Source of the DNA: Chloroflexota bacterium
GTDB taxonomy: Bacteria; Chloroflexota; Dehalococcoidia; Tepidiformales; Tepidiformaceae
DNA length: 64,000 nt
Assembly: GCA_026702615.1 (NCBI GenBank)
Contig: JAPPBY010000019.1
Span: forward strand, 1-64,000
Reading direction: 5' to 3'
Part shown: one piece after another, positions 23,901-45,619 of the stretch
How the letters are laid out: each line of letters begins with the position of its first letter
How positions within the stretch are numbered: position 1 is the stretch's first letter
The notes under the pieces: model-generated
Told to the model about the DNA's origin: nothing
What the model saw: only the letters and a program-made list of their open reading frames with translations
Databases searched by the model: none
Program-made: the position numbers and the translations under genes

Positions 23901-26900
23901 CCCGTGGTCTCGTCGAATGCGAAGTCGAGGGCGTCCGGCCCGGAGAGCGGCTTCCAGCTCGCGGGCTGCCCCTCCGGGTCGGCCTTGGTGTATGTGCCGA
24001 CGAAGTCCGTCGCGTTCTCCGCGATCGTGACGTGGGCCGGGCCACTGATCTCGGGCGCCTCATCGACATCCGTCGGCCGGACGAGCACATCGAGTCTGCC
24101 AACGAGGAAGGAGTCGCTGGCAAGGATCTCGACTTCGTAGACATCGTCATCGTTGGCATCATCGCTGTCCTCGTAGTTGGGTCGCTGCTTGAAGCGGAGT
24201 TCGCCCGAGTTCGCGTCGATGGTGAACAGCCCGCCATCGTCCCCGCCGACGTCGAAGGTGATTGCCCGGGTCGGCTCTTCCGGGTCGCTGGCCTGGTAGG
24301 TGGCAACCGCGCCCAGCCCGTCCTCGGGAAAATCGACATCCGCGGGGCCCGTGACGAGGGGCGGTTCGTCTACGTCCTGGACGGTGATGCGTACAGCATG
24401 CTCAGTGTGGCGGGCGGCATCGGCGACGCGGACAGTCACGTTGTATTCGTTGTCCTTGCCCACGTCTCCCGGTTCGTCGTAGTCCGGCGGCATCTTGAAC
24501 TCGAGGGCGCCGTCCGCGACCGCAGCGTCCTGTCCATCGTCCGGCGTCTCGTCTTCGGGGCCTCCGAGGGTGAAGGCGTCTTTGTCGGGCCCCAGGAGGG
24601 TGTACGTGAGGGGCTCGTCCTCGATGTCCATACCCACATACTCCGCCACGATCCCTTCGGAGTTCTCGAGGACGCTGACCTCGCGCGGCCCGCTGATGGT
24701 CGGAGCGTCGTTCTCGTTCAGGACGTTGACCGTCACGGTGATGCGGTCGTCGATCAGGTCGTTGCTGTTGCCTTCCACGTTCTTCCGGTCGCTGACGCTC
24801 ACCTCGACCGTGTAGGTGTCCTGTGTTTCGTAGTCGAGGTTGAGGGAGGCGCGCACCCGCAGTTGCCCGGTCAGTTCGTCGATCACGAACGGGGCGATGG
24901 GGGGCACGCTGTAGTAGAGCTGATCGCCATCGGGGTCAATCGCGAGCACGGGCGCTCCGACCGCCGCGGGACTCACCGCGTGCTCGCCGATCTCGCGCAC
25001 GCCCGTCTCGGTGGCAGGGAACAGGGGCCCGAGGTTCGCAGGCTCCGGCTCGGCGGTGATGGTCGCTGCACCGCCGGCGCCCGCCCTGTTGACCGCTCGC
25101 ACCTGGACGTCGTAGCGAGTGTGGTTGGCGAGGCCGGTGACGGAAGCGCGCAGGTCGCCGTCGCCGCTGCTCCACGCGGTCTGCCACCCGGTCCAGCTGT
25201 CCGCGTCGGCGACGCTGCTCCGGATGTCGTAACGCACGATGTCCGCGCCGCCGTCGGAGGCCGGCGGACTCCAGGTGATGGCAAGTCCGCTGGTGAAGGC
25301 CGTGGCGGCCATGTTGGTGGGCGCGCCCGGCGCCACCGCCACGCTGCCGACGTAGGTTTGCGACCACGGGCCGGCGCCGGCGTCGTTGTTGGCCCGGACC
25401 TGGATGTCGTAGCGGACGCCGCTGGTCAGGCCCGTGAGATCGTGGGAGAGGGCGCCCGAGGTCTGGGCGTCCGTGACCTCCGTCCAGTGCTCGGCGGCCT
25501 TGTCCGCGGCGTTGCTGCGGATATAGCGCAGGTCGTAGGAGGTAATCGCGGAAGCGCCGGTTTCGCTCGGGGCATTCCACGTGAGCAGCAGCGAGTCGGC
25601 GTCGGACGTCCCGGAGGGGGTCGCAGGCGCGCCGGGCCTCAGGCTGAGGCCATAGAACTTGATGCGGAACTCCCTGAACGTCCCTCCGTTGCCGGCAAAT
25701 TCATCGGTGATGTGCAGCTTCCAGGCGCCAACCGGGCTTTCGCCCAGGTGCTTCGCCGAGCCGAAACGGATCGCCCCGTCAAAGGCGTAGGGGCGGTCCA
25801 GGTAGTCTCGCACTTCGCCGGAGTGCGTCAGCAGGGACGTGGCGCCCGTGGGGGACTCGAGCTCGATTTTCAGGTCACGGAAGCTGTCGTGGTCGATCTC
25901 GGCGGTGATCTCCACGAACTCGATAAAGTCGATGCTGCTCTGAGAGATTGTGACGGTGCGCGTGTAGGGCGTGTTGATGACGGTGGAGAACCGTGTCGGG
26001 CCCGTCCAGCGCACCTCGTGCGTGCGCTGATCCTGCACGTTGGTCCAGTCCGCTGCGAGGTCGACCGCCGCGCCGGCGTCGACCACGCCGAAGCCGTACT
26101 TGTGGTTGAACGAGTAGACCTCCGTGTCGGAGCCATACTGCAGCGCGCCATCCTCCCAACCGCCATCGGACGCATCGTTCTTGCGCGCGGACGCGGCCAG
26201 GATCAGCTTCACGTCGCGCCAGGTGAGCGAGGAGTTGGCAGACTTGATCAGCGCCACGACGCCGGACACGATGGGCGCAGCCGCAGAGGTGCCGCCGAAG
26301 TCGCCCCAATACAGACCGGGCGTAAAGTCCGAGCCGTCGCCGTAGGCGTACAGCAGCGCGGCGGACTTCGTGGTCGTGATGAATGCGCCATCCCCGTGGG
26401 ACGGGGCGCACACCCACAGGTTGGCGCCAGGCTCGGAGTAGCGGCTCTTCTTGCCGTTATGGTCGACCGCGCAGACGGCCGTGACGCCGTAGAAGTTTGC
26501 GTACCCGTCCAGGTTGGCGTTGTCCAGGGCGTAGTCGTCCGGATCGCCGCCGTTGCCGGCGGCCCAGACGTAGGAGATGCCCCGGCCGCCGTCCCCTTCT
26601 CTCAGCCCTGTTTCGATCGCCGCGATCCAGGTAGCTTCGGCGGGGTGGGGCGCGCCATCATCCGAGAATCCCCAGCTGTTGGACGACACCTGCGTGCCCC
26701 GCCTGTGGCGGGTCATCGCATCCACCAGGTCGCGGGTCTCCGCCTCGCCTGCGTCCAGCCAGTCGACGAAGTTATAGCTGTAGATCGTCGCTCCGGGCGC
26801 CACGCCCCGGACACCGAGCTTGTTGTGCTCGGCGGCGATCAGCCCTGCAACGGACGTTCCATGATTCACCCAGAAGAGATTTGAGACGCCCCCCGGCACT

Positions 26901-28645
26901 CCGGTCCAGTAGTCGTAGTTGCGGCTGGTGTTCACGTTGTCCTTCAGGTCTTCGTGGTCGAGGTACAGGCCGTCGTCCACGATCGCGATGTTCACGCCCG
27001 CTCCGGTGTTCCCGCTCTCCCACACCTCCACGACGTTGATGTCCTCGCCGACTCCGCCGCCGAACTGGCCTGTGTTGTCGAGGTGCCACTGGCAGCCGTA
27101 GAACGCGTCGACGGTGTCGTCCGCTGTCAGGTCCATGCACTCCTGCGTGAACGCGGTGTAGCCCTCCTCGCGCAGAGCGAACAGGAAGTAGGCTCCAATC
27201 TCGCGCCCGTCCGCCTGCACACGGATGCCGTACGTTTTCCCCGCCTCTGCGGGTACGAGCGCGTAGTCCGCCAGGTGGGCCCGCCCGAAGTCGTCCCACT
27301 CGCTGTGTGGGATCCTGAGCGCGTCGAGGGTGGAACCCCCCTCGTCGTAGACCGTGATCCCCGCCGCCATCGGGTCGTCGATGAGCGTCGCGGCCGCGAG
27401 CGAGAGATAGCCGTCCTCCTCCGCCGTGACGCTGAAATAGTCGGCATCCGACGAGGAGGAGATGCGCCCGGGCGCGCCCGCACCGATCTCGATAGGCGTT
27501 GCCGTGCTCAGCGATGTCCCGGGGCTGGGCGCCCCGGCCACCATCATCCAGTACGGCCCCGTGAAGAACGACCGATTGCCGACGATCTTGATGTAGTACG
27601 TGCCGGCGGCGACCGTGCGCCGCAACATGAAGCCCAGGGCATTATCGAAACTGCCGAACGGGTAATGCTGGAACAGCTCACCGGCAAGGAAGAACCTGTA
27701 GCTTGTCTGAAGGTCGTTGCCGCTGCTGTCGAGGAGCTGGCCGGTGATGACCGTGTCGCTGAAGGCCACGACGTAGAAGTCGGTCGCCGTGTCAAAGTCG
27801 AGCTTGTAGTAGTCCGCATCGTGGCTGCTGGTGTCGCCGGGCCGCCCGATCCGCCCCGCTGTCACCATGCCGAGGTGCGCGGGAGCCGCCGAGGGGAGAC
27901 TGTTCCCCACGTCGTCGGGCACGAGCATCCCGTGGAGCTCGTACGCGCCCGTGGCGCCGCCGTCGCCCGTGACCTCGATGTAGTAGGTTCCGGCGTCCAG
28001 GCGGGCGCGGACCAGGAAGTTCCAGGGACTCTCCGGGAACCTGCCGTCGTTGTTCGACACCACGGACGTCCCATCGCTCGCCTGCAGCTCGCCGTGCGTA
28101 TCGAGGAGCCCGCTGCTGTAGAGCACCAACTCCCTCGTCTCGGTCACCACGAAGCTGAAGAAGTCCGCATCGGTGTCCGAGTGGATTCGTCCCGCCACGC
28201 TGGCAGTCGAGTCGCTCAGCGCGAAGCTGGCGGCGGACGAGCGGGTACTGCCGAAGTCGTCCGTGGCCTGGGTGGTCGAGGCTGACCAGGCGCCGTCACC
28301 CTCGCTGTTGACCGCGCGCAGCTGCACGTCGTAGCTCGTGCTGTCTCGCAGGTCCGGGATGGAGTAGGAGAGCGCGCCGCTGGTCCAGGCGTCCTCGACG
28401 AGGGTCCAGTTGGCGTCGGCCGTTTCGTCGTCGTCGGTCTCGATGTAGCGGAGGTCGTATGCGGTGACGGTGGCGCCGCCGTCGTCGTCGGGGGCGGCCC
28501 ATGTGACGGTGAGGGAGTCCGCTGCCGAGGTGATCGCGATGCTGGTAGGGACGCCCGGGATAGTCACGGTCTGCGCCAGGGTGCGGCCCCCCGGGAGCAG
28601 GAGGCCGAGCGCGGCGCAGACTGCGATCAGGGCGCCCCACCTCAT
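20906..28645 (-). CDS. Giant secreted kexin-like S8 protease with adhesion modules
   Basis: A 2579-residue exported protein. A signal peptide (1-24) is followed by a fibronectin III domain (about 30-128), three PPC-like beta domains (about 140-500), a subtilase domain (about 510-850), a P-type domain (about 860-1000), two fibronectin III domains, then about seven cadherin-like and one VCBS-like domain (about 1215-2115). A glycine tract (about 2120-2137), a WSDG-type propeller domain (about 2145-2390), a cadherin-like sandwich (about 2400-2495) and a W-rich C-terminal end complete it. The catalytic triad is Asp557 (VDDG), His595 (HGTSVAG) and Ser787 (GGTSAAAP); the VDDG form plus P domain points to the kexin/furin subfamily. 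No prodomain lies between signal peptide and catalytic domain. The gene start overlaps the upstream lipoprotein stop by ATGA. Confidence 0.85.
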   Translation of the reverse strand: MRWGALIAVCAALGLLLPGGRTLAQTVTIPGVPTSIAITSAADSLTVTWAAPDDDGGATVTAYDLRYIETDDDETADANWTLVEDAWTSGALSYSIPDLRDSTSYDVQLRAVNSEGDGAWSASTTQATDDFGSTRSSAASFALSDSTASVAGRIHSDTDADFFSFVVTETRELVLYSSGLLDTHGELQASDGTSVVSNNDGRFPESPWNFLVRARLDAGTYYIEVTGDGGATGAYELHGMLVPDDVGNSLPSAAPAHLGMVTAGRIGRPGDTSSHDADYYKLDFDTATDFYVVAFSDTVITGQLLDSSGNDLQTSYRFFLAGELFQHYPFGSFDNALGFMLRRTVAAGTYYIKIVGNRSFFTGPYWMMVAGAPSPGTSLSTATPIEIGAGAPGRISSSSDADYFSVTAEEDGYLSLAAATLIDDPMAAGITVYDEGGSTLDALRIPHSEWDDFGRAHLADYALVPAEAGKTYGIRVQADGREIGAYFLFALREEGYTAFTQECMDLTADDTVDAFYGCQWHLDNTGQFGGGVGEDINVVEVWESGNTGAGVNIAIVDDGLYLDHEDLKDNVNTSRNYDYWTGVPGGVSNLFWVNHGTSVAGLIAAEHNKLGVRGVAPGATIYSYNFVDWLDAGEAETRDLVDAMTRHRRGTQVSSNSWGFSDDGAPHPAEATWIAAIETGLREGDGGRGISYVWAAGNGGDPDDYALDNANLDGYANFYGVTAVCAVDHNGKKSRYSEPGANLWVCAPSHGDGAFITTTKSAALLYAYGDGSDFTPGLYWGDFGGTSAAAPIVSGVVALIKSANSSLTWRDVKLILAASARKNDASDGGWEDGALQYGSDTEVYSFNHKYGFGVVDAGAAVDLAADWTNVQDQRTHEVRWTGPTRFSTVINTPYTRTVTISQSSIDFIEFVEITAEIDHDSFRDLKIELESPTGATSLLTHSGEVRDYLDRPYAFDGAIRFGSAKHLGESPVGAWKLHITDEFAGNGGTFREFRIKFYGLSLRPGAPATPSGTSDADSLLLTWNAPSETGASAITSYDLRYIRSNAADKAAEHWTEVTDAQTSGALSHDLTGLTSGVRYDIQVRANNDAGAGPWSQTYVGSVAVAPGAPTNMAATAFTSGLAITWSPPASDGGADIVRYDIRSSVADADSWTGWQTAWSSGDGDLRASVTGLANHTRYDVQVRAVNRAGAGGAATITAEPEPANLGPLFPATETGVREIGEHAVSPAAVGAPVLAIDPDGDQLYYSVPPIAPFVIDELTGQLRVRASLNLDYETQDTYTVEVSVSDRKNVEGNSNDLIDDRITVTVNVLNENDAPTISGPREVSVLENSEGIVAEYVGMDIEDEPLTYTLLGPDKDAFTLGGPEDETPDDGQDAAVADGALEFKMPPDYDEPGDVGKDNEYNVTVRVADAARHTEHAVRITVQDVDEPPLVTGPADVDFPEDGLGAVATYQASDPEEPTRAITFDVGGDDGGLFTIDANSGELRFKQRPNYEDSDDANDDDVYEVEILASDSFLVGRLDVLVRPTDVDEAPEISGPAHVTIAENATDFVGTYTKADPEGQPASWKPLSGPDALDFAFDETTGELTFADVPDHDDPADSNRDSVFNVTLNATDGTHDGGFDVIVTVTNVDEPPVITGPASFEIEENTRTLGNYSATDPEGGTVIITLAGADATHFTFSGGALAFAAPPDFEDRASYFLTIEAADAAHTARHAVTVNVGNVDEAGTLTLSSGQPQVGTQLEATLADPDGSISGESWTWERGAGATWTPISGANSGFYTPVDDDVGRSLRVTVDYTDGHDSGKRVLRVSARSVQAPPPVNNAPEFDSPSMDRSVDENAAERTLVGARVRATDADNDVLTYTLSGPDAAEFTIDGSSGQIRVGPGTVLDRETEDTYTVVVTATDPSDESDSTTVTITVNDIDEPPVARDDRPTTPEDTPVTIDVLGNDSDPEGVSLTVALGRANPAQGTPTLESDNTFTYTPNPNEHGVHSFTYTASDGVNAPVSANVYVTVQSVNDPPRFEEQPTEREIGETAREGDLVGAPFTAIDVDHEPLTLSYSLSGAGADAFEIEEHTGQVMVATDAILDVAVQAEYMLTVTVRDPDGASATIGITITVTEGPVTVAPAIFTGGGGGGGGGGGGGGPSGPTPSTADFEWTVKHDIEALESGHDRPTGSWSNGATLWLLHNGDGADDAIYAYDVESGERVEDREFALDERNRAPRGVWSDDEGVAWVSDSGREKLFAYDLTTGERLEDRDIDLDERNADARGIWSDGETMWVLDERRNAVFAYDLESGDLLAEYALDSANGSPTDIWSDGVTLWVSDPGSSPRRLFAYRLPTREEAVAATEDASLERVRDEEFEKLSQASNNSPRGIWSDGAVMYVADESDGKVYTYNMPDAIDARLSSLSLSGIDIGTFDPDRTDYEGVIAEGVTETSVEAGGLQRRTEVAIDPPDADGTDTNGHQVTLAGLSEITVTVTSADGTRTRVYSVGLEAALMELEVGPSWTSFEWPGADGVVIGEAGLPEEVVAVYTWDETAGRWLGYFPGLDEVPGVNTLTTFSSGTTYWVVATEAASWKVGRTAADGE
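21156..21505 (-). repeat. 350-bp identical block, copy 1
   Basis: By eye, identical base for base to 30135-30484 (constant offset 8979). It encodes residues about 2381-2497 of the protease: the end of the propeller and the cadherin-like sandwich. Sequences on both sides in the two genes are alike but clearly diverged, so the identity stops sharply. Confidence 0.85.
22231..22276 (-). repeat. Poly-glycine codon tract
   Basis: A run of GGC/GGT glycine codons (CCGCCACCG units on the plus strand) separates the cadherin part from the propeller part of the protease. A similar tract sits at the same place in the RCC1 protein gene. It is probably a flexible linker and may vary in length by slippage without changing the frame. 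Confidence 0.75.
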
Positions 28646-29607
28646 CTCAGGACGACTTGGGAGCGCCAGTTGGGGCTGGAGATCAGCACCCCCTCCTCGT
28701 CGGCCAGGTCGTTCGCGAGCAAGAGCGAGGGCAGGCCGGGATCGGTCGAGATGAAGTAGGCGTTGGTGGCAAAGTCCTCCTCCTCGACGCGGCTGAGCGC
28801 GATACCGTTGGCGGCGAAGAAGCCCTTGACCCGGCTCTCATCCCACTCCGGATCGAGCACCAGCAGCACGCCGCCGGGCAGGGTCATCCGTCGCCCGGAG
28901 TCGTCGTAAAAGACGGGGGCGCCATCGGAGTCCGCTTGCGAGTCGGCACGCTCGGAGGCGCCCCCTTCGCCCGAGGCGCCCGTGTTTTCGGCAGGCCCCA
29001 GCCACACGCGCCGCGTGTGTTCGCCGTCCTGCCAGGTGTATTCGGTGGCCCCCTCGGGAGGTGCTCGCCGCGTGCCGTTGTCGCCCGCCGAGCCGGGACC
29101 GCGTGCGCCGGCCGGCAGCCTCCCCGCCGGCTGGGCGGCGCTCCCCCCGGCCGGCGTTGGAGCTGCCCTGTCGGGCGTTGCGTTCGCTGTCGGAGTGTCC
29201 GCCGGCGTGGTCCCCTCGCTGTTCCGACCCGCAGGAGAAGGGGTGGCGTTCGCTACGGGAGTGGTCGGCGTGGCAGTCGCGGCGGCACTCTGGCTATCGG
29301 GTACCGGGGTGGTCGGCGCCGGCGCTGCCGTTGGCGCCGGCGGCATCCCTGCCGGCGTGGCTTCACGCTGGCTGTCCGGTACCGGGGTGGCCGGCGTTGG
29401 TGTTGCCGTCGGCGTCGGCGGCATCCCTGCCGGCGCGGTTGCCGCCGGTTCGCTGAGTGTGGACTGACAGGCGACCAGCAACACCGCGGCGCCGAGCCAG
29501 AGAGCGACCATCGCGGGGGCAGTGGGGAAGGGAACGGACGGTCTTCTTGTACGCACTTCATGGACCACCTGAGTGGCCGTACGCCGACACGTCGAGGCTA
29601 GTGCCAT
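28642..29607 (-). CDS. Lipoprotein carrying a subtilase-propeptide-like domain
   Basis: A 321-residue predicted lipoprotein. The signal peptide ends in VLLVAC (Cys47) and is followed by a long Pro/Thr/Ala/Ser linker with repeated PVPDSQ and AGMPP units (about 50-180). The last 75 residues read like a subtilase propeptide (inhibitor I9 type): a GGVLLVLDPEWDES opening, the middle strand DFATNAYFISTD, LLLANDLADEEGV and an end SPNWRSQVVLR. Its TGA overlaps the ATG of the protease gene, so both are translated from one mRNA. The inference is that it acts in trans as a membrane-bound chaperone or inhibitor of the protease. ATG at 29607 is chosen because it gives a basic n-region; an ATG at 29511 is possible. 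Confidence 0.7.
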   Translation of the reverse strand: MALASTCRRTATQVVHEVRTRRPSVPFPTAPAMVALWLGAAVLLVACQSTLSEPAATAPAGMPPTPTATPTPATPVPDSQREATPAGMPPAPTAAPAPTTPVPDSQSAAATATPTTPVANATPSPAGRNSEGTTPADTPTANATPDRAAPTPAGGSAAQPAGRLPAGARGPGSAGDNGTRRAPPEGATEYTWQDGEHTRRVWLGPAENTGASGEGGASERADSQADSDGAPVFYDDSGRRMTLPGGVLLVLDPEWDESRVKGFFAANGIALSRVEEEDFATNAYFISTDPGLPSLLLANDLADEEGVLISSPNWRSQVVLR

Positions 29608-29771
29608 GAGACCGTCGCTCGCCCGCGCCGCTGCTGTCCGCCCAGCCAGGCGCCTGGCTGAGGTTGCTTGCCAGCTCACGTGCTCTCGCCGCCGGTGTCG
29701 CAACACGGGCCGTAAACGATAGTCGGATGATCCCTGGAGAAAGTGAGGGAGCTATAAAACTACGGTCTTAC

Positions 29772-29884: not shown

Positions 29885-32800
29885 CTACTGTTCGCCGGCG
29901 TCGGCCCAACCCGGCGTCCAGGTAGCGTCCTCTTCGGCGGCGACCCAGTAGGTGGTGTCGGAGGAGAACGCGGTCAAGGTGTTGAGGGCAGGCACGTCCT
30001 CCCGGCCCGGGAAGTAGCCAAGCCACCGGCCCGTGGTCTCGTCCCAGGTGTAGACGGCGACCACCGCCTCGGGGAGGCCGGCTTCGGCGATGGGCGCGCC
30101 TTCCGGTCCTGGCCACTCGAACGATGTCCAGGAAGGGCCCACCTCCAGCTCCATCAACGCGGCCTCGAGACCCACGGAGTAGACCCTCGTGCGGGTGCCG
30201 TCGGCCGAGGTCACCGTGACGGTGATCTCCGAGAGGCCCGCAAGGGTGACCTGGTGGCCGTTGGTGTCGGTGCCGTCGGCGTCAGGCGGGTCGATGGCGA
30301 CTTCCGTGCGGCGCTGCAACCCCCCTGCCTCGACGCTCGTCTCCGTCACGCCCTCGGCGATGACGCCCTCGTAGTCGGTCCGGTCTGGGTCGAACGTCCC
30401 GATGTCGATGCCGCTGAGAGAGAGCGAGGAGAGGCGCGCGTCAATGGCATCGGGCATGTTGTAGGTGTAGACCTTGCCGTCGCTCTCGTCGGCGACGTAC
30501 ACGACGTCGCCGTCGGCCCACACGCCCCGCGGGCTGTTGTTGCTCGCGCCGCTCAGTTCCGTGAAGTCCTCCTCGCGGATGCGCTCAAGGGCGGGTGGTT
30601 CCCCGGGAGCGGCCTCCCCCTCGTCCGGCAGAACGGGCAGGCGGTAGGCCCACAGGTCCTTGAGACCGTGATCCGATACCCAGACGGTGACGCCGTCGGA
30701 CCAGATGCCGCGAGGGTCGCGGTTGCGTGGGTCGAGGCTGTACTCGGTAAGGAAGTCACCACTCGTGAGGTCGTAGGCGAAGAGGGATGGGTTGCGGTTG
30801 AGCACCCACATCGTCTCGCCGTCGGACCAGATACCGCGAGCGTCGGCGTTCCGCTCGGTGAGCTCGATGTCACGGTCCTCGCGCCGCTCCCCGGTGGCGA
30901 GGTCGTAGGCGAAGAGCTTCTCCTGGCCGCTGTCGCTGACCCACACCACCCCCTGGCCGTCGGACCAGAGGCCGCGGGGCGCGCGGTTGCGCCCGTCAAG
31001 CTCGAACTCGCGCTCCCCGACGCGCTCCCCGGTGGCTAGGTCGTAGGCGTAGACGGCGTCGTCGGCGCCGTCGCCGTTCTCGAGCAGCCAGAACGTGGCG
31101 CCGTCGGACCACATCCCGGTGGGCTTGTCGTGGCCACCGGTCAGCGCCTCGATGTCGTGCTTCACGGTCCACTCGAAGTCGGCCGTGCTGGGGGTAGGCC
31201 CGTCCCCACCGCCGCCTCCCCCACCACCGCCTCCGCTTCCACCACCGCCGGGCGACCGTCGCGTCTGCCCACCGATCGTCACCGTCGTCTCGAACGCGGG
31301 TCCCAGAGTCACCCGGTCCGCCGTTGGCGTGTCGATGCTGATCGCCACGGTCTCGGCGTCGTCCTCCTCGTCGTCCGTGAGCGAACTGAAGGTGAAGGTC
31401 TGTTCCGTCACGCCCGCGTCGAAGACGAGCCGGCCCGGGTTGCCGGGGTCAGGCCACGCGATGGCGAAGTCGGCCTGGCTTGCGTCCGCGGGCGTCACGG
31501 TGAGCGTGATCTCGACTCGCCGCTCGGGATCCCGGCTCAGCACCACCGCGATGGTCCCGGCGTCGCCCTCCGCGATCGTGTAGGCGTTCTGCTGAAAGCT
31601 GACGGTCACCGCCGGATGGTCGTCGTCGACGATGCTGACGACCGTCTCGTTGGGCGTGCCCGCCGCGACCCCGGCGGGCAGGTTGGTGAAGCCGAACCTG
31701 ACCGACTCGCCGTCGTCGTCAACCGAATCCTGCGTCGCCGAGAAGCTGACGGTCCTGGTCGTCTCGCCGCTGTTGAAGGTGACATCGGAGGGGAAGCTGT
31801 AGTCGCTGCCCGACGCGCCGCCCTGGTTCGTCCGGCTCAGGGGAATCGTGACCGTGCGCTGCGGGTCCGCGCTCAGGTTGACCGTGACGCTCCGCGAGGC
31901 GCCCTCGTCCACGCGGTAGGCATCGCTGCCGAAGCTGACCGTGACTTGCACGACATCGTCGTCGGTGATGTTGACCACCGTCTCGTTGGTCGAACCGGCG
32001 ATGTATCCGGGGGGCAGGCTGCCGAGGCTCAGCCTGACTGACTCGCCCGACTCCACGGCCGAGTCGTCCACGGCTGTGAACGTCACCGTACCCAGGTTGG
32101 CCCCGCTATTGATGGTCACGCTCGCCGGCAGGGTCGTGTAGTCGGCGCTGGTGGCGCCGCCCTGGTTCGTGACGCTGACGGGAATGTCCACCTGGGCGCT
32201 GGCCGCGGAGTCCAGCGTCACCCTGACCGTGACGGAGCCGCCTTCGCCAACGGTGTAACTCGGTTGCGCGAAGTTCACGGTCTTCGTGTTGTCGATGATG
32301 TCGACCCGTGTCTGGGCCGGCGCGGTTGCTGACACGCCGCTCGGCAGCGCGCCCAGGCCGATCAGGACGCTCTCGCCAGCATCGTTGACGGAGTCGGGAG
32401 TTGCGGTGAGGGAGAATGCCTGCTCGGCCACCCCTCTGAGGGCGACCGTGGCCGGCACCCCGAAGTAGTCGTCGCTGCCGGCGCCCCCCTGGTTCGTCGT
32501 CGTGAGCGGAATCACGACCGTGCGCCTGGGGTTGGCGCTGAGACGGAGCGTCACGGTCACGGCGCTTCCCTCCGACACGGTGTGGCTGGCTGCGTCGAAC
32601 ATCACTGTCACGTCCGGGCGGTCGTGGACGGTCATGGCGTCCGCCGTCGACCAAGTCACGCCCTCGGGGAGCCGCGGCCAGCAGGTGACGGAGTCGTCGC
32701 TCCTGATCCCGCAGCTGTGCCGGTGGCCCGCCGAGAGAGCCTTGAAGGTTCCTTCAAGGGGGTCGGACTGTCCGTTTGAATTACCTCCCCAGCAGGCGAC

Positions 32801-34603
32801 GCTGCCGTCGCTCCCGAGGCCGCAGGTATGGTCGTGGCCGAGGACGAGCGACGTGAATGTGCCTGCGGGCGCGCGGCTGCTGGGACCCCAGCAGGTGACG
32901 GTGTCGTCCAGTGCAGTGGCGCAGGTGCGCTTCCGGCCCCCGGCGAGGGTCTTGTAGGAACCGGTCGGCGCACGGCGTTCACGGTTGGCATTGGTGCCCC
33001 AGCAGGCAATGGTGTCGTCGGTTCTGATCGCGCAGCTGTGGGCATCGCCCACGGAGATGGCCTTGTAGGCCCCCGCCGGGGCGTCGGCCTGTCCATCCCT
33101 GTTGCGCCCCCAGCAGACGACGGTGTCGTCGTTCCTGATGGCGCAGGTGTGGAAGTACCCGGTTTCGAGGGCCTTGAACGCGCCGGCGGGCGCGCTGGTG
33201 TACCCGTCCGTGCTCGATCCCCAACAGGCGATGGTGTCGTCGGTTCTGATCGCGCAGGTGTGGAAGTCTCCCGCTCTCACGGCCTTGTAGGTACCGGCGG
33301 GGTCGTTGGCCTGGCCAAACACGTTGTATCCCCAGCAGGTGACGGCCCCATCGAAGCCGAGGGCGCACGTGTGCTCCCCGCCCACGGACATGGCGCTGAA
33401 GGCGCCGGCTGGCGCATCCAATTGCCCCTGGTCGTTGTATCCCCAGCAGGCGATGGTGTCGTCGGTAGCGATCGCGCAGGTGTGGTTCCGGCCGCTCTGG
33501 ATCGTTCGGTAGTGGCCCTCCACTTCCTCCGTCTGCCCGAAGTGCTGGGTTCCCCAGCAAACGATGGCGGTGTCCGTCCGCACCGCACAGGTATGCAAGT
33601 CCCCGAGGCCTATCTCCGTGAAAGTGCCCTGGGGTGCTTCCGACTCCTCTTGCACGTTCGATCCCCAACACGTGATGGTGTCGTCCATCCGCATCGCGCA
33701 GGTGCGATTGTTGTGCGCCTTCACGGCCTTGAAGGTGCCCGTGGGGGCGTCGGTCTGCCCTGCTGTATTGACCCCCCAACAAGTGATCGTGTCGTCCATC
33801 TTGATGGCGCAGTTGTGGTGCCGGCCCGCAGTTACGGCCTTGAAGGTTCCCGCGGGCGCGATCGTCGCTCCACGGTTCAGGTCGTTGCGCTCTCCCGCGC
33901 AGACCATGGTGTCGTCGTCCTTGATCGCGCAGATGTGCACCGAGCCCGAGGCGAGCGCCTTATATGTGCCACCGAATGGTGGTGATGGGCGCCCGAAGTG
34001 ATAGCCCCAGCACGAGACGGCGCCGTCGGTGGCGATGGCGCAGGAGTGCTCCCAGCCGACCGCGAGGGCAACGTACGTGCCCTCCGGAGAGTTGAGCTGC
34101 CCCCAGGCGTTGTATCCCCAGCAGGAGATGCTCTCGTCAGCGCCAATCGCGCACGCGTGATTTCCTCCGGCGACGAGGGACGTGAACGTGCCTCCCGGCG
34201 CCGCCTCGACATCGCCGCCGAAGCTCTCACCCCAGCAGGTTATGGCGCCGTCGGTGCCGAGCGCGCATGAGTAGCGCGCCCCGGCATGGATCGACGTGAA
34301 GGTGCCCTCCGGGGCATTCACCTGCCCGCTACCGGCGCCCCCCCAGCACGTGAGCGTGCCGTCCGTTTCGATCGCACAGGTGTGGTAGGTACCGGCGGCC
34401 ACGGCCTGGTAGGCGCCGCTCTGAGAGGCGGCCTGAACCGAGGTGTCTCCCAGGGTGGCGGGGGCCGTCGCCATGGCCGAACGCCCCGCGGAGTCGAGAG
34501 CGAGCGCGGCAACGGCCAGCGCCGCCAGCATCAGGGTGGTAGCCGCCGCCACTGCCGCCGTTGGCGGCGTCGCCGTTCTGGGCCACCTGGCGCACCTCGA
34601 CAT
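29885..34603 (-). CDS. Giant exported RCC1-repeat / Calx-beta protein
   Basis: A 1572-residue exported protein with a hydrophobic N-terminal segment (about 15-37). Residues about 65-665 hold 16 repeats of about 37 residues with the pattern GTF-x-A-x-x-x-G-x-x-H-(T/S)-C-A-x-x-x-D-x-x-x-x-C-W-G, an RCC1-like propeller repeat with two cysteines each. Four Calx-beta-like domains follow (about 680-1130), then a glycine tract, the same WSDG propeller, cadherin-like sandwich and W-rich C-terminal end as in the protease. No catalytic motif was seen, so it is probably structural, adhesive or ligand-binding. It is alone on its transcript; an upstream element resembles that of the protease operon. Confidence 0.82.
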   Translation of the reverse strand: MSRCARWPRTATPPTAAVAAATTLMLAALAVAALALDSAGRSAMATAPATLGDTSVQAASQSGAYQAVAAGTYHTCAIETDGTLTCWGGAGSGQVNAPEGTFTSIHAGARYSCALGTDGAITCWGESFGGDVEAAPGGTFTSLVAGGNHACAIGADESISCWGYNAWGQLNSPEGTYVALAVGWEHSCAIATDGAVSCWGYHFGRPSPPFGGTYKALASGSVHICAIKDDDTMVCAGERNDLNRGATIAPAGTFKAVTAGRHHNCAIKMDDTITCWGVNTAGQTDAPTGTFKAVKAHNNRTCAMRMDDTITCWGSNVQEESEAPQGTFTEIGLGDLHTCAVRTDTAIVCWGTQHFGQTEEVEGHYRTIQSGRNHTCAIATDDTIACWGYNDQGQLDAPAGAFSAMSVGGEHTCALGFDGAVTCWGYNVFGQANDPAGTYKAVRAGDFHTCAIRTDDTIACWGSSTDGYTSAPAGAFKALETGYFHTCAIRNDDTVVCWGRNRDGQADAPAGAYKAISVGDAHSCAIRTDDTIACWGTNANRERRAPTGSYKTLAGGRKRTCATALDDTVTCWGPSSRAPAGTFTSLVLGHDHTCGLGSDGSVACWGGNSNGQSDPLEGTFKALSAGHRHSCGIRSDDSVTCWPRLPEGVTWSTADAMTVHDRPDVTVMFDAASHTVSEGSAVTVTLRLSANPRRTVVIPLTTTNQGGAGSDDYFGVPATVALRGVAEQAFSLTATPDSVNDAGESVLIGLGALPSGVSATAPAQTRVDIIDNTKTVNFAQPSYTVGEGGSVTVRVTLDSAASAQVDIPVSVTNQGGATSADYTTLPASVTINSGANLGTVTFTAVDDSAVESGESVRLSLGSLPPGYIAGSTNETVVNITDDDVVQVTVSFGSDAYRVDEGASRSVTVNLSADPQRTVTIPLSRTNQGGASGSDYSFPSDVTFNSGETTRTVSFSATQDSVDDDGESVRFGFTNLPAGVAAGTPNETVVSIVDDDHPAVTVSFQQNAYTIAEGDAGTIAVVLSRDPERRVEITLTVTPADASQADFAIAWPDPGNPGRLVFDAGVTEQTFTFSSLTDDEEDDAETVAISIDTPTADRVTLGPAFETTVTIGGQTRRSPGGGGSGGGGGGGGGGDGPTPSTADFEWTVKHDIEALTGGHDKPTGMWSDGATFWLLENGDGADDAVYAYDLATGERVGEREFELDGRNRAPRGLWSDGQGVVWVSDSGQEKLFAYDLATGERREDRDIELTERNADARGIWSDGETMWVLNRNPSLFAYDLTSGDFLTEYSLDPRNRDPRGIWSDGVTVWVSDHGLKDLWAYRLPVLPDEGEAAPGEPPALERIREEDFTELSGASNNSPRGVWADGDVVYVADESDGKVYTYNMPDAIDARLSSLSLSGIDIGTFDPDRTDYEGVIAEGVTETSVEAGGLQRRTEVAIDPPDADGTDTNGHQVTLAGLSEITVTVTSADGTRTRVYSVGLEAALMELEVGPSWTSFEWPGPEGAPIAEAGLPEAVVAVYTWDETTGRWLGYFPGREDVPALNTLTAFSSDTTYWVAAEEDATWTPGWADAGEQ
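30135..30484 (-). repeat. 350-bp identical block, copy 2
   Basis: The partner of 21156-21505, encoding residues about 1374-1490 of the RCC1 protein. Same orientation, 8979 bases apart, so recombination between them could delete the protease, the lipoprotein and part of this gene, or convert one copy to the other. Confidence 0.85.
31203..31254 (-). repeat. Poly-glycine codon tract (RCC1 protein)
   Basis: A run of glycine codons, with a few Ser or Pro, joins the Calx-beta part to the shared propeller cassette. It corresponds in position to the tract at 22231-22276 in the protease gene, marking the cassette boundary. Confidence 0.7.
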
Positions 34604-37338: not shown

Positions 37339-37401
37339 ATGAGCGGCTGGCCCTGCGCAGGCCCGAATACCCCCCACCTGACCGAGGCATTCCCGCTGTG
37401 A
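37339..37401 (+). CDS. 20-residue pyr leader peptide
   Basis: ATG at 37339, seven bases after a strong GGAGGAGG site, opens a 20-codon ORF (MSGWPCAGPNTPHLTEAFPL) that ends in TGA at 37399-37401. The TGA overlaps the pyrR GTG start as GTGA. pyrR itself has no good ribosome site of its own, so it probably depends on coupling to this ORF. If PyrR binding blocks the leader's ribosome site, the operon would be repressed. Confidence 0.6.
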   Translation: MSGWPCAGPNTPHLTEAFPL

Positions 37402-37952
37402 GTCCCGTTGAGCTGCAACGGGGGCAGGAAGTTGCGCGCACGATCCGGCGGCTCGCCCACGAGATCGTCGAGAGCAACGGCGGCGCGGAGAACCTGGTGC
37501 TGGTGGGGCTGCTGACGCGGGGTGCGCCCCTGGCGGGGCGGCTGGCGTCGGCGATCGAGGCGTTCGAGGGCGAGTGCCCGCCGGTCGGACGGCTGGACGT
37601 GGGGCTCTACCGGGACGACGTGGCCCACCGCGACCCCCCTCCTCCCGTACGCCCCAGCGACATCCCCCTCGGGGTCGACGGCGCCACGGTCGTGCTCGTC
37701 GACGACGTGCTCTTCACGGGACGCACGATCCGGGCGGCGATGGACGCAATCATGGATTTCGGGCGGCCGGCGCGGGTGCGCCTGGCGGTGATGGTGGACC
37801 GCGGCCACCGCGAGCTGCCAATTCGCCCCGACTACGTTGGCCGCAACATCCCGACGGCGCCCTCGCAAACGGTCGAGGTGCGGTTGGCGGAAACAGACGG
37901 CGAGGACGCGATCTACCTGATGGAGGGAGCCGACAGTCATGGTGAGCATTGA
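37398..37952 (+). CDS. pyrR: PyrR, pyrimidine operon regulator / uracil phosphoribosyltransferase
   Basis: A 184-residue bifunctional protein: it binds the pyr mRNA leader when UMP is high and has uracil phosphoribosyltransferase activity. The PRPP-binding motif is VVLVDDVLFTGRT (about 97-109). The N-terminal VSPVELQRGQEVARTIRRLAHEI-type helix and LVGLLTRGAPLAGRLA match PyrR. GTG at 37398 overlaps the stop of the leader ORF; the next gene pyrB starts 14 bases before the pyrR stop. The RNA element it should bind lies about 100 bases upstream. Confidence 0.93.
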   Translation: MSPVELQRGQEVARTIRRLAHEIVESNGGAENLVLVGLLTRGAPLAGRLASAIEAFEGECPPVGRLDVGLYRDDVAHRDPPPPVRPSDIPLGVDGATVVLVDDVLFTGRTIRAAMDAIMDFGRPARVRLAVMVDRGHRELPIRPDYVGRNIPTAPSQTVEVRLAETDGEDAIYLMEGADSHGEH

Positions 37953-38964
37953 ACCGGCCGCCCCGACAGCCACTGAGCCGGAAGAGCAGCAAACGCCGGC
38001 CGTCACAGAGGACCCCACCGTCTGGGAGCGGAAGGACCTGCTCGATACGGACACGCTCTCGGCCGAGGAGATCGACCTCGTGCTGGAGACGGCGGACGCG
38101 ATGGCGGAGGTGCGGGAGCGGCCCGTGGGGCGGGTCGCCACGCTGCGGGGCACGACCGTCGTGACGCTCTTCTACGAGAACAGCACGCGCACGCGCGCCA
38201 GCTTCGAGATTGCGGCAAAGGCGCTCGGCGCGGACGTCATCAATCTCGCGGCGGCGGGGAGCAGCGTGGGCAAGGGCGAGTCGCTGGTGGACACCGTGCG
38301 CACGATCGAGGCAGTGGGGGCGGACGTGGTGGTGATGCGCCACCCGAACTCGGGGGCGGCGGCGCTGGCGGCCCGGCACACGAGCGCGAGCGTCGTGAAC
38401 GGGGGCGACGGGTCGCATGCGCACCCGACGCAAGCCTTGCTCGACCTGTACACGATGCGCCGGCACGTGGGCGAGATCGAGGGGCGCAAGGTCGTCATCG
38501 TGGGCGACATCCTCCACAGCCGCGTGGCGCGCTCAAACCTGTGGGCGCTACAGGCGGCTGGGGCGCGGGTGACGCTTTGCGGTCCGGCGACGCTGCTGCC
38601 GCAGTCACTGCGCTCGTTGCCCGGATACGAGGGGCCGGGGGGCTGCGAGGTGACGACCGACCTCAAGGGGGCGCTCACGGGCGCGGACGTGGTGATGGCG
38701 CTCCGCATCCAGCGGGAACGGCAGGACCAGGGCTTGCTGCCCTCCCTGCGCGAATACATCCGGCAGTACCAGATCACGGAGGAGCGGCTGGCGCGGGCGA
38801 ACGCAGGGGCGCTGGTGATGCATCCCGGGCCGATGAACGAGGGTGTCGAGCTGGCGCCCGAGGTCGCGCACGGGTTGCGCTCGGTGGTCGAGGAGCAGGT
38901 TACGAACGGGGTGGCAGTTCGCATGGCCATCCTCTACTTGATGGCGACAGCGAGGCGTCAATGA
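37939..38964 (+). CDS. pyrB: Aspartate carbamoyltransferase catalytic subunit
   Basis: Condenses carbamoyl phosphate and aspartate to carbamoyl aspartate, the second step of pyrimidine synthesis. The 341-residue protein has the carbamoyl-phosphate motif FYENSTRTRASFE near residues 78-90, HPTQALLDLYTM near 162 and the MHPGPMNEGVEL aspartate-side motif near 295. The N-terminus is about 30 residues longer than usual and probably disordered. No pyrI regulatory subunit is present. The start overlaps pyrR by 14 bases and the stop overlaps pyrC as ATGA. Confidence 0.95.
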   Translation: MVSIEPAAPTATEPEEQQTPAVTEDPTVWERKDLLDTDTLSAEEIDLVLETADAMAEVRERPVGRVATLRGTTVVTLFYENSTRTRASFEIAAKALGADVINLAAAGSSVGKGESLVDTVRTIEAVGADVVVMRHPNSGAAALAARHTSASVVNGGDGSHAHPTQALLDLYTMRRHVGEIEGRKVVIVGDILHSRVARSNLWALQAAGARVTLCGPATLLPQSLRSLPGYEGPGGCEVTTDLKGALTGADVVMALRIQRERQDQGLLPSLREYIRQYQITEERLARANAGALVMHPGPMNEGVELAPEVAHGLRSVVEEQVTNGVAVRMAILYLMATARRQ

Positions 38965-40283
38965 GCGTGGTACTTATTCGTGGGGGACGGCTGATCGACC
39001 CGGCAACGGGTCGCGACGAGCACGGTGACGTGCTCATCGAAAACGGCCACATACGGGCGGCCGGCGGCATCCTCGCCGCCGACGGGGCGGAGGTGGTGGA
39101 CGCCACGGGGTGCATCGTGACCCCGGGGTTCATCGACCTGCATGCGCACCTGCGCGAACCCGGATTCGAGCAGAAGGGCACGCTCGCGACGGAGACGGAG
39201 GCGGCCCTGCGGGGCGGCTTCACCACCGTGTGCGCGATGCCGAACACGAACCCGGCGCCCGACAGCGCTCCGGCGGTGGAGGGATTCCTGAAGCTGGTGG
39301 CGCAGAAGGCGCGCATACGTGTCCTGCCAGTTGGGTCGACGACGGTGGGGCGCAAGGGGGAGCGGCTGGCGGCGCTGAGCGAGCTGGCGGAGGCGGGGTG
39401 CGTCGCGCTGAGCGACGACGGCAGCCCCGTTCCCGGCGGCAACCTCATGCGCAACGCGCTCACGCTGGCGGGTGCGCTGGGGCTGGCGGTGGCGGAGCAC
39501 TGCGATGAGCCATCGCTGAGCGGCAACGGCTCGATGCACGAGGGAGCGGTGAGCGAACGGCTGGGGCTGCCGGGGCAACCGGCGGCGGCGGAGACGGTCG
39601 CGATAGCCCGAAACATCGAACTCTGCGAGCTTACCGGCGGACGTTTCCACATCATGCACGTGACGACGGCGAGAGGCGTAGAGCAAGTGGCGCAAGCGAA
39701 GGAGCGTGGGTTGCCGGTGACGTGCGAGGTCACCCCCAGCCACCTCTTCCTGACCGACGAGGCGGTCGCGGGGAGTGACCTGACTCCCGCCTATGACACC
39801 TCGGCGAAGGTGAACCCGCCACTGCGCACCGAGACTGACCGGCTGGCCCTGCTGGCGGGCGTCAATTCGGGCGTGATCGACGCGATCGCAACGGACCACG
39901 CGCCGCACGCGCCGGAAGAGAAGCTGCGCGAGTTCGACCACGCGCCGTTCGGCATCAGCTGCGCCGAGACGGCGCTCGCAACGGTCACGACGCTCGTGTC
40001 GCGCGGGGAGCTTGAGCTGGGGGCGGCGCTGCGGGCGCTGACGCAGGGACCGGCGGAGACGTTCGCGCTCCATGGCCATATTCCCGGCATCGGGACGCTC
40101 GCGGTCGGGGCGCCCGGTGACGTGACCGTGTTCGACCCCGAGGAGCGCTGGACGGTCGACCCGGCGGCGTTCGCGTCGAAGGGGAAGAACACACCGCTCG
40201 CGGGCCTCGAACTGCAGGGGCAGGTGCGGGCGGTCGTGGTCGGCGGAGATCTGCGGCACTTGCTGGAGGCGGTGCATGTCTAG
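38961..40283 (+). CDS. pyrC: Dihydroorotase
   Basis: Cyclises carbamoyl aspartate to dihydroorotate. The 440-residue amidohydrolase has the metal-binding DLHAHLREPG motif (His61, His63), the conserved AMPNTNPAPDS region, metal-site histidines in VAEHCDE and FHIMHVTT, and the catalytic aspartate in ATDHAPHAPEEK near residue 312. It is the type I class seen in Gram-positive-like operons. ATG at 38961 overlaps the pyrB stop as ATGA and the gene overlaps carA by eight bases. Confidence 0.94.
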   Translation: MSVVLIRGGRLIDPATGRDEHGDVLIENGHIRAAGGILAADGAEVVDATGCIVTPGFIDLHAHLREPGFEQKGTLATETEAALRGGFTTVCAMPNTNPAPDSAPAVEGFLKLVAQKARIRVLPVGSTTVGRKGERLAALSELAEAGCVALSDDGSPVPGGNLMRNALTLAGALGLAVAEHCDEPSLSGNGSMHEGAVSERLGLPGQPAAAETVAIARNIELCELTGGRFHIMHVTTARGVEQVAQAKERGLPVTCEVTPSHLFLTDEAVAGSDLTPAYDTSAKVNPPLRTETDRLALLAGVNSGVIDAIATDHAPHAPEEKLREFDHAPFGISCAETALATVTTLVSRGELELGAALRALTQGPAETFALHGHIPGIGTLAVGAPGDVTVFDPEERWTVDPAAFASKGKNTPLAGLELQGQVRAVVVGGDLRHLLEAVHV

Positions 40284-41442
40284 CGCGAGGCTCGTGCTCG
40301 CCGACGGGAGCGTTTTCGAGGGCCGCGCAGTGGGCGCGACCGGGTCGGTGGGCGGCGAGGTGGTGTTCAACACCTCGATGACGGGCTACCAGGAGATGCT
40401 GACGGACCCCTCCTACGCGGGGCAGCTGCTCACGCTGACCTACCCGATGATCGGGAACTACGGGGTCGACACGGCGGTGGAGGAGTCGGGACAGATCCAG
40501 CCGCGGGGGCTGATCGTGCGCGAGGTGGCGCCGGTCTCGAGCCACCCGCTTTCGACGAGCGATCTCGCGACGTTCCTGGCCGAGCGCGGCGTTGTCGCTA
40601 TCGATGGCGTCGACACCCGCGCGATCACGCGGCGCATCCGGCGTCACGGGGTGATGCTGGGCGTGATCACAACGGAGCGGGTCGAGGAGGCGCGGGAGCG
40701 CGTGCAGTCGCTCCCCGGCTATGACGGTATCGACTGGGCGTCGCAGGTCTCGACGGCGGAGCAGTACGCCTGGGAGTCGTTCGCGGAGAAGCACGAGCTC
40801 CGGCCCGCCATGGAGTCGCGGTCGAACAAGGCAATCGTGAAGCCTGAGAAAGCGGAGGCGGCGGGGAGCCCGAAGCGGGTGGCGCTCATCGACGGCGGGG
40901 TGAAGCGCAACATCATGCGTTCGCTCGTCGCGCGAAACTGCGAGGTCACCGTTCTCCCGATCGACGCGAACGCGGAAGAGGTGCTCGCGCTCAGGCCGGA
41001 CGGCGTCCTGTGGTCGCCGGGGCCGGGCGACCCACAGGTGCAGAACTCGCAAGTCGAGGAAACCCGCAAGCTGATCGGGAGGGTTCCCCTGTTCGGCATC
41101 TGCCTGGGGCACCAGGTGATCGCACGGGCGCTGGGAGCGGGCACGTTCAAGCTGCCGTTCGGCCACCGGGGCGGGAACCACCCCGTTCGCGACGAGCGCA
41201 CGGGCACGGTGACGATCACGGCGCAGAACCACGGCTACGCGGTTGACCCCGAGCGTCTGGCGGCATCGGCGGCAGTGAGCCACGTGAACCTGAACGACGG
41301 CACGGTCGAAGGGCTCAGCATGCGCGACGAGCCGGTCATGACCATCCAGTACCACTCAGAAGCGAGTCCGGGCCCGCTCGACAGCATGGACATGTTCGAC
41401 CGCTTCGTGGAAATGATGGACTCGGCAGGAAGCGGGCGATGA
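40276..41442 (+). CDS. carA: Carbamoyl-phosphate synthase small subunit
   Basis: The glutaminase subunit that supplies ammonia to CarB. The 388-residue protein has the CarA-specific N-terminal domain ([19 protein letters not shown]) and a class I glutamine amidotransferase domain with Cys276 in FGICLGHQ, followed by [13 protein letters not shown] and the catalytic histidine in [10 protein letters not shown] near the end. ATG at 40276 lies inside pyrC. A GNAT gene starts in its stop (ATGA), so carA and carB are separated by two genes. Confidence 0.95.
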
Positions 41443-41891
41443 CGCGCACCACGGCCATGCGGCAGGCGACGACCGACGATGCGGCAGCCGTTGCCTCCAT
41501 CGCGCATGCCCTGCGCGACGAGCCGAACACAAGCCTTCCACCCAGTCTCGACACCGAGATGGCGCGAGGCTGGCTCTCGCGCATCGGGGAGCACGGAGCC
41601 GCCGCGATCGCGCTGGACGGGTCGATCCCGGTCGCGTTCGGGATGGTCGAGGCGAGCCCCGACGAGCCGGAGACGGCGGAGCTCGGGGTCTGGGTGCTGC
41701 CCGACCACCGCCAGCGGGGCATCGCCACGCAGCTCGCGGAGGAGCTGCTGGCGCTCGCACGCGAGCGCGGCCTGCGTCGCATCCGCGGGCGGCTGCCGGA
41801 AGGCAACGAGCCGGCGCTCAGCTTCCTTTCCTCGATCGGGGGGATGGTTCCCCTGCGCAACCCCGACATGACGTTCGAGCTGCCCCTCTAG
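41439..41891 (+). CDS. GNAT-family N-acetyltransferase
   Basis: A 150-residue acetyltransferase of the GNAT fold. The acetyl-CoA pyrophosphate-binding motif A reads [20 protein letters not shown] (beta4-alpha3), with the Q/R-x-x-G-x-G/A pattern in RQRGIA. The substrate is unknown. It is inserted between carA and carB and overlaps the carA stop as ATGA, so it is expressed with the pyrimidine genes; whether it has a role in that pathway is unclear. Confidence 0.82.
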
Positions 41892-42368
41892 ATGGCAGCC
41901 GTGAGCAGCACACGCCGCCCCCTGCCGCCAACCCGCGGCGGAGCCGTCCGGCGCGACCCGTCGCGCGCGGCCGCGAGCTGGACGGACGTGCTCATCGCCC
42001 TCGCGGCGACGGCGCTCGCGATGGCCGTGTTCGTCCTAGTCGCGACCTTCGCCGGCGAGAACGTGGCCGGCGACGAGGCGGGGCGGTTCTGGGCGCTGCT
42101 GTTCGCGGCCGGGCTTGGCCTCTCCGGGCTGTTCCTGGGGATGCTGGGGCTGGTGTTGCTGGGCGAGGGGGCGCGCGAGGGCGGCCGCTACCTGGTTCCG
42201 GTCGCCACAGGCATCGCGACGGGCGCAGTCGTGGGAGCGCTGGTGCTGGACGGGGCGGGCCGCGGAGCGGTGCTCGCACCGCTGCTGCTGCTCCTGCTCG
42301 CGACGCCACCGCTGCGGGAGGGGCTGAGGTGGCTGATGCGGCGCGGGGCCGGAGGGAGGACGCGATGA
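41892..42368 (+). CDS. Small membrane protein in the pyr operon
   Basis: A 158-residue protein with an arginine- and proline-rich N-terminal 25 residues and about four hydrophobic segments (roughly 32-52, 66-90, 98-118 and 121-140). No family was recognised. It begins directly after the GNAT stop codon, and its own stop overlaps the carB start as ATGA. The tight packing makes it a true operon member. Confidence 0.72.
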
Positions 42369-45300: not shown

Positions 45301-45619
45301 CGACCTCTACGCCACGGAGGGCACGGGGGCGATGCTGGACGCGCTCGGCATCCCCTCAACGGTCGTGACGAAGGTGCTGAGCGGCGCCCATCCGAACGTG
45401 GTGGACGTGATCGAGGACGGTACGGTTCGCTGCGTGCTCAACACGTCCGAAAACCGGATGACGGGGTCGCTACGGGACGGCTTCCACATCCGGCGGGCAG
45501 CGGCGGAGAAGCGCATCCCCTGCTTCACGTCGATCGACACGGCGCGGGCGGCCATCGAGACGATGCGCGGGACCGTGACGCCGGCGGTCGCCCGGCTGGA
45601 CGAGTACGTGGCGCGATGA
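42365..45619 (+). CDS. carB: Carbamoyl-phosphate synthase large subunit
   Basis: Makes carbamoyl phosphate from bicarbonate, ammonia and two ATP. The 1084-residue protein has the two homologous halves, each beginning with a pre-ATP-grasp motif ([19 protein letters not shown] and [18 protein letters not shown]), each with an ATP-grasp domain, the oligomerisation domain between them and the C-terminal MGS-like allosteric domain ([18 protein letters not shown]). Length is normal. It overlaps the preceding gene and pyrK, both as ATGA. Confidence 0.96.

Follow-up and report, generated by a model that had tools for sequence, protein, structure and literature searches.

A probable propeptide encoded apart from its kexin-like protease, on an overlapping lipoprotein gene, in Chloroflexota

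In the textbook picture, subtilases carry their chaperone propeptide in cis, and most secreted subtilases need one in order to fold. Factors that act in trans have been studied as well. The protease ASP of Aeromonas sobria has a separate chaperone, ORF2, which ends in a lysine that reaches the catalytic centre and which inhibits the enzyme with an IC50 of 84 nM (PMC5638518). The prodomain of the clostridial protease CspB restores folding when supplied in trans and blocks the active site with its last three residues (PMC3567191). Stand-alone propeptide-like inhibitors have been described as well, among them Pleurotus POIA1, yeast Pbi2, Arabidopsis SPI-1, TgMIC5 and SUB1-ProM (PMC6993865). In lactococci, the lipoprotein PrtM is needed for maturation of the giant subtilase PrtP, which is encoded next to it (PMC13374181 and its reference 32).

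The locus described here lies in the window, a stretch of 64,000 nucleotides from a Chloroflexota bacterium, in which a lipoprotein gene overlaps the gene of a giant kexin-like protease. An initial annotation, made from the letters alone, had suggested that the lipoprotein carries a subtilase propeptide. We put a probability of roughly 80% on the reading that its C-terminal 92 residues are the separately encoded propeptide of the adjacent protease, acting in trans as a chaperone and product-like inhibitor. Among known systems, ASP and its external chaperone ORF2 come nearest. As in that pair, a kexin-like S8 protease with a P-domain has no cis propeptide recognisable by Pfam or alignment, and a neighbouring separate gene encodes a partner with a basic C-terminal residue. 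Unlike ORF2, which is encoded downstream, the window partner is encoded upstream and, in some lineages, is a lipoprotein; its domain also has a homologue fused in cis, in genome G436. No ORF2 chain was found among the PDB sequence matches of the domain profile up to E 10, nor among the 50 structural matches listed, and the window partner may work like ORF2 by analogy while standing outside the ORF2 family. The annotation had called split propeptides not known for Chloroflexota; the idea has a studied precedent in ASP/ORF2 (PMC5638518), and is hence less unprecedented than that remark implied.

The gene, its strand, its length, the lipobox and the overlap with the protease gene were all found as annotated, and are collected with the other features in Table 1. 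From its N-terminus the lipoprotein consists of the LVAC lipobox, a long linker rich in Thr, Pro and Ala, a short YTW..DG motif and the C-terminal domain. The longest ATG start is at 29607; a GTG start at 29706 and an internal ATG (residue 33) are alternatives, and under any of these candidates the lipobox is retained and the C-terminal domain is unaffected. The split genes share the conserved motif upstream of the propeptide domain, which reads YTW.DG...RV at 28999-29040. Around the two genes, no pattern of a sigma-70 promoter or of a terminator turned up. Elsewhere in the window, 37398-45619 on the plus strand reads, from translations only, as an ordinary pyrimidine operon: pyrR, pyrB, pyrC, carA, then carB.

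Table 1. Coordinates of the lipoprotein and protease features in the window.
Feature	Position	Strand	Remarks
Lipoprotein gene with putative split-off propeptide	28642..29607	-	321 aa, start codon uncertain; conserved pairs in L004, L005, L006, L010/L023, L011/L024, L026/L029
Lipobox LVA-C (LVAC), residues 44-47	29467..29478	-	Read from translation; identical in L005, L004/L025
Short conserved motif YTWQDGEHTRRVWL ahead of the domain, 3' of the low-complexity Thr/Pro/Ala linker	28999..29040	-	Conserved in G008, G006, G117
C-terminal 92-residue domain of the lipoprotein	28645..28920	-	AlphaFold mean pLDDT 91.9, pTM 0.80; cis homologue in G436
C-terminal tail WRSQVVLR, last residue Arg	28645..28668	-	Alignment; Arg or Lys in 7/7 split homologues
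ATGA stop/start overlap coupling lipoprotein and protease genes	28642..28645	-	ATGA or GTGA in 6/7 split pairs
Giant kexin-like S8 protease gene, 2579 aa	20906..28645	-	
FN3 domain of the protease, residues ~28-127	28265..28564	-	Pfam fn3
Three PPC-like domains of the protease, residues ~130-490	27176..28258	-	Pfam PPC E 3.9e-4 on the first; alignment
S8 catalytic domain, Asp/His/Ser triad intact, S1 acids kept (SWGFSDDG, NLDGYAN)	26087..27004	-	PF00082 E 7e-38; kexin alignment E 4e-49
P-domain, proprotein convertase type	25655..25921	-	PF01483 E 3e-14

The window protease begins with a signal peptide, an FN3 domain and three PPC-like domains, and a short linker of about 25 residues joins the third of these to the S8 catalytic domain, which is followed by the P-domain. 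The proteases of G008 and G117 are built alike, and that of G006, which has no FN3 and one PPC fewer, goes from its signal peptide through two PPC-like domains to the catalytic domain. Some Pfam assignments of the PPC copies are weak or missing (the second copy gives 2e-5 and 4e-5 in G008 and G117, the third a weak 0.056 in the window), and the assignments are consistent in the alignment. Just as annotated, FN3 and PPC-like domains and no propeptide precede the catalytic domain: a propeptide inside the protease N-terminus was looked for with Pfam and alignment, and none was recognisable in the split proteases of the window, G006, G008 and G117. Their N-terminal architecture leaves no space for one.

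Kexin and furin give the best alignments to the catalytic domain. The S1 pocket of those two enzymes is lined by aspartates, and two acids give a preference for Arg or Lys at P1; these aspartates align with Asp in the two motifs of the window protease given in Table 1, and Asp or Glu stands at both sites in the aligned homologues. Two PDB chains named "extracellular serine protease", 3hjr_A and 3wqb_A, which we take to be ASP structures, match the window protease at about 1e-35. At its other end, the protease has a C-terminal region of several hundred residues which is near-identical to that of an adjoining RCC1-repeat/Calx-beta-like protein (29885-34603, minus strand). The region contains a poly-Gly hinge, propeller-like repeats, a cadherin-like domain and a terminal WTSFEWPG...YWV domain, and may be a surface module common to both proteins. 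Apart from the window protease, the genome has one complete subtilase (L001 1117-3282, contig C30); judged by eye, it has an ordinary short cis prodomain, and its C-terminal domain (GAGWSQVAYLGP...YQALWVYSEG) is similar to that of the window protease.

AlphaFold was used to predict the structure of the lipoprotein's C-terminal 92 residues on their own, from an alignment of eight sequences. The model has strands at 18-22, 45-48, 54-57 and 78-83 and helices at 28-37 and 63-73, an order of strand-helix-strand-strand-helix-strand that matches the published topology of subtilase propeptides (PMC6993865). The strand-helix pattern that had been noticed in the last 75 or so residues is thus present in the predicted structure. 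Searches by fold and family were less clear. With Foldseek against the PDB, the domain matched mostly generic ferredoxin-like folds at E above 0.04, with no match under E 0.001. At rank 11 was 8gkq_A from the A. fumigatus alkaline protease, a chain of 93 residues which is taken by that length to be the propeptide chain, and its TM-score of 0.52 is the highest among the 50 matches listed. The domain matches no Pfam family, the whole lipoprotein has no Pfam domain up to E 10, and the curated cut-offs of PF22148 (Fervidolysin_NPro-like) and PF05922 (Inhibitor_I9) are not exceeded. Compared as a profile with typical prodomains of the class, the split members alone gave no match; once the fused member was added, a nearly full-length, in-register but weak match appeared (P 0.016). 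On their own, searches by sequence and by fold would have left the assignment unproven.

The decisive evidence is the fused form in G436, a genome of the same class as the window. A profile built from the split genes only was searched against 400 genomes of the phylum and found a G436 domain at E 5.5e-10, which lies within a single protease ORF, directly before the S8 catalytic domain. It is 32% identical to the window domain, and the two catalytic domains, which are orthologous, are 46% identical (45-50% between split and fused forms within the phylum). The G436 domain model has the same element order, and the predicted elements coincide. A stretch similar to the YTWQDGEHTRRVWL motif, VYRLRDGGGAIELRL, precedes the fused domain as judged by eye, although MAFFT did not align it. 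The cis domain of G436 also matches the PF22148 Fervidolysin prodomain weakly (E 0.0024, 18.6 bits against a cut-off of 21), and prodomains of the fervidolysin type occur in 40 of 148 genomes of the class. A model of the fused prodomain with its catalytic domain had a pLDDT of 41 overall, good only over the prodomain, and is thus uninformative on docking. G436 is the only cis homologue found, and the orders around G117 and G436 held no further members when searched. Like the cis propeptides of the fervidolysin and I9 types (PF22148, PF05922), the window domain has the propeptide fold, and its G436 homologue likewise stands directly before a catalytic domain; it differs in being on another gene and in having diverged beyond the reach of the Pfam models. 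Its homology to the cis domain makes it probably a diverged subtilase prodomain, one that belongs to neither family, and the fused form would show where the split propeptide came from.

The domain is conserved in six other split genes at 53-97% identity. Among close relatives its dN is 0.015-0.066 against a dS of 0.125-0.194, and the linker ahead of it has a dN of 0.17-0.19, so the domain is under purifying selection, with a stronger constraint than on the linker. Because of this conservation and selection, the strand-helix domain is not a product of chance. Besides the window's own, the 400 genomes held two further members: the fused G436 and G117, which lies outside the class and in which a second split gene precedes the same type of protease. 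Domain and protease type are both found in the same three genomes (G000, G117 and G436, from three families), and at the thresholds applied both are absent from the other 397; if the two were independent, the chance of this co-occurrence would be about 1e-7. In the genus, both genes are present in the same four of nine genomes (G000, G004, G006, G008) and neither in the other five. Other genomes, where the annotation had proposed looking for the pair and its overlap, yielded six further split pairs, and six of the seven overall have ATGA or GTGA. Homologues with more similar propeptide domains also have more similar catalytic domains (r = 0.88 between the pairwise identities). In both domains, G006 (L024) is closer to G117 (L029), which lies outside the class, than to the rest of its genus, which suggests that the gene pair may have moved together by horizontal transfer.

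No relative of the domain was found on viral contigs. Weak matches at L012-L022 and L037-L041 were discarded as chance, those that were read (most of them, singly) sitting in unrelated ORFs or frames. The Latescibacterota match, L007, lies in a region that encodes no protease, and the profile matches nothing in that genome.

Three other explanations of the lipoprotein were weighed. The one with most in its favour, though we think it unlikely, is a stand-alone regulatory inhibitor of propeptide descent, which would inhibit the protease and so protect the cell surface but would not fold the enzyme. Such a role has been proposed for fungal and parasite propeptide-like inhibitors. Stand-alone inhibitors of the I9 type exist (PMC6993865), a lipid anchor would suit self-protection, and the basic C-terminus suits inhibition. 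The window domain shares with POIA1 and the others a separate gene and a propeptide fold that would likewise act in trans. Those inhibitors are regulatory and, as far as described, independent of chaperone function (PMC6993865), whereas no propeptide can be recognised within the window protease, and its gene overlaps that of the lipoprotein; strict one-to-one co-occurrence, together with that overlap, better fits an obligate partner.

A general lipoprotein chaperone like PrtM/PrsA, acting by prolyl isomerisation and not as a propeptide, is very improbable, even though in the lactococcal pair, too, the gene of a lipoprotein maturation factor adjoins that of a giant surface subtilase (PMC13374181). 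Yet PrtM, which is no propeptide but a prolyl isomerase, is transcribed divergently, while the window lipoprotein has no parvulin-type isomerase or other Pfam domain up to E 10, its model has the ferredoxin-like fold of the propeptide type, and a cis homologue precedes the catalytic domain in G436. We give equally little credence to a coincidental ferredoxin-like domain in an unrelated lipoprotein that happens to lie upstream. The top Foldseek matches are indeed generic ferredoxin-like proteins, but coincidence is contradicted by homology to the cis domain of G436, by co-occurrence across families and by the conserved order of the pair. Based on the G436 fusion, the lack of a recognisable cis propeptide and the perfect co-distribution in the sampled genomes, a split propeptide is the best reading, and the annotated suggestion of a subtilase propeptide on a separate lipoprotein is supported.

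If the lipoprotein is a split propeptide, both it and the protease would be exported, and the propeptide would pack onto the catalytic domain and aid its folding. The terminal Arg of its tail would then sit in the S1 pocket like a cleaved product and keep the enzyme inactive until the propeptide is broken down or comes off. Binding, chaperone activity and inhibition are inferred here by analogy with the described systems. All seven split propeptides, from four lineages, end in Arg or Lys in the alignment; since 9 of 46 window ORFs (about 20%) also do, this is suggestive but not proof.

The annotation had further proposed that the propeptide is tethered to the membrane, and the sequences would allow this in some lineages and not in others. 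Read from the sequence, the LVAC lipobox is present in the window and its close relatives, a weaker AVGC is present in G008, and two of the four split lineages, G006 and G117, have no lipobox and only an ordinary signal or anchor; therefore anchoring would seem to be a lineage trait outside the core design. By its lipobox the window protein reads as a bacterial lipoprotein and would be lipidated, so that lipid tethering is plausible in the window organism. There and in close relatives, a lipid-anchored propeptide would carry out folding and inhibition at the cell surface. A more ambitious scenario, which we hold only tentatively and think somewhat doubtful, is that a prodomain permanently split from its enzyme became a surface chaperone and inhibitor, anchored in the membrane and coupled in translation to the protease. 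This would free the N-terminus of the protease for FN3 and PPC domains and leave the protease held at the surface and silent until the tethered propeptide is destroyed.

A kexin-like protease without its own propeptide and with an external partner was already known; here the partner is a lipoprotein, the two genes overlap, and a fused homologue shows the origin of the arrangement. The ASP/ORF2 case did not explain how dependence on an external partner arises in a kexin-like protease, and homologous split and fused forms within one phylum make the transition from cis to external directly comparable. The pair is a natural two-piece protease and propeptide from an uncultured Chloroflexota, and offers material for studying folding in trans and surface anchoring. 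It also suggests that such lipoproteins, which match no family model, are probably required for the protease encoded next to them.
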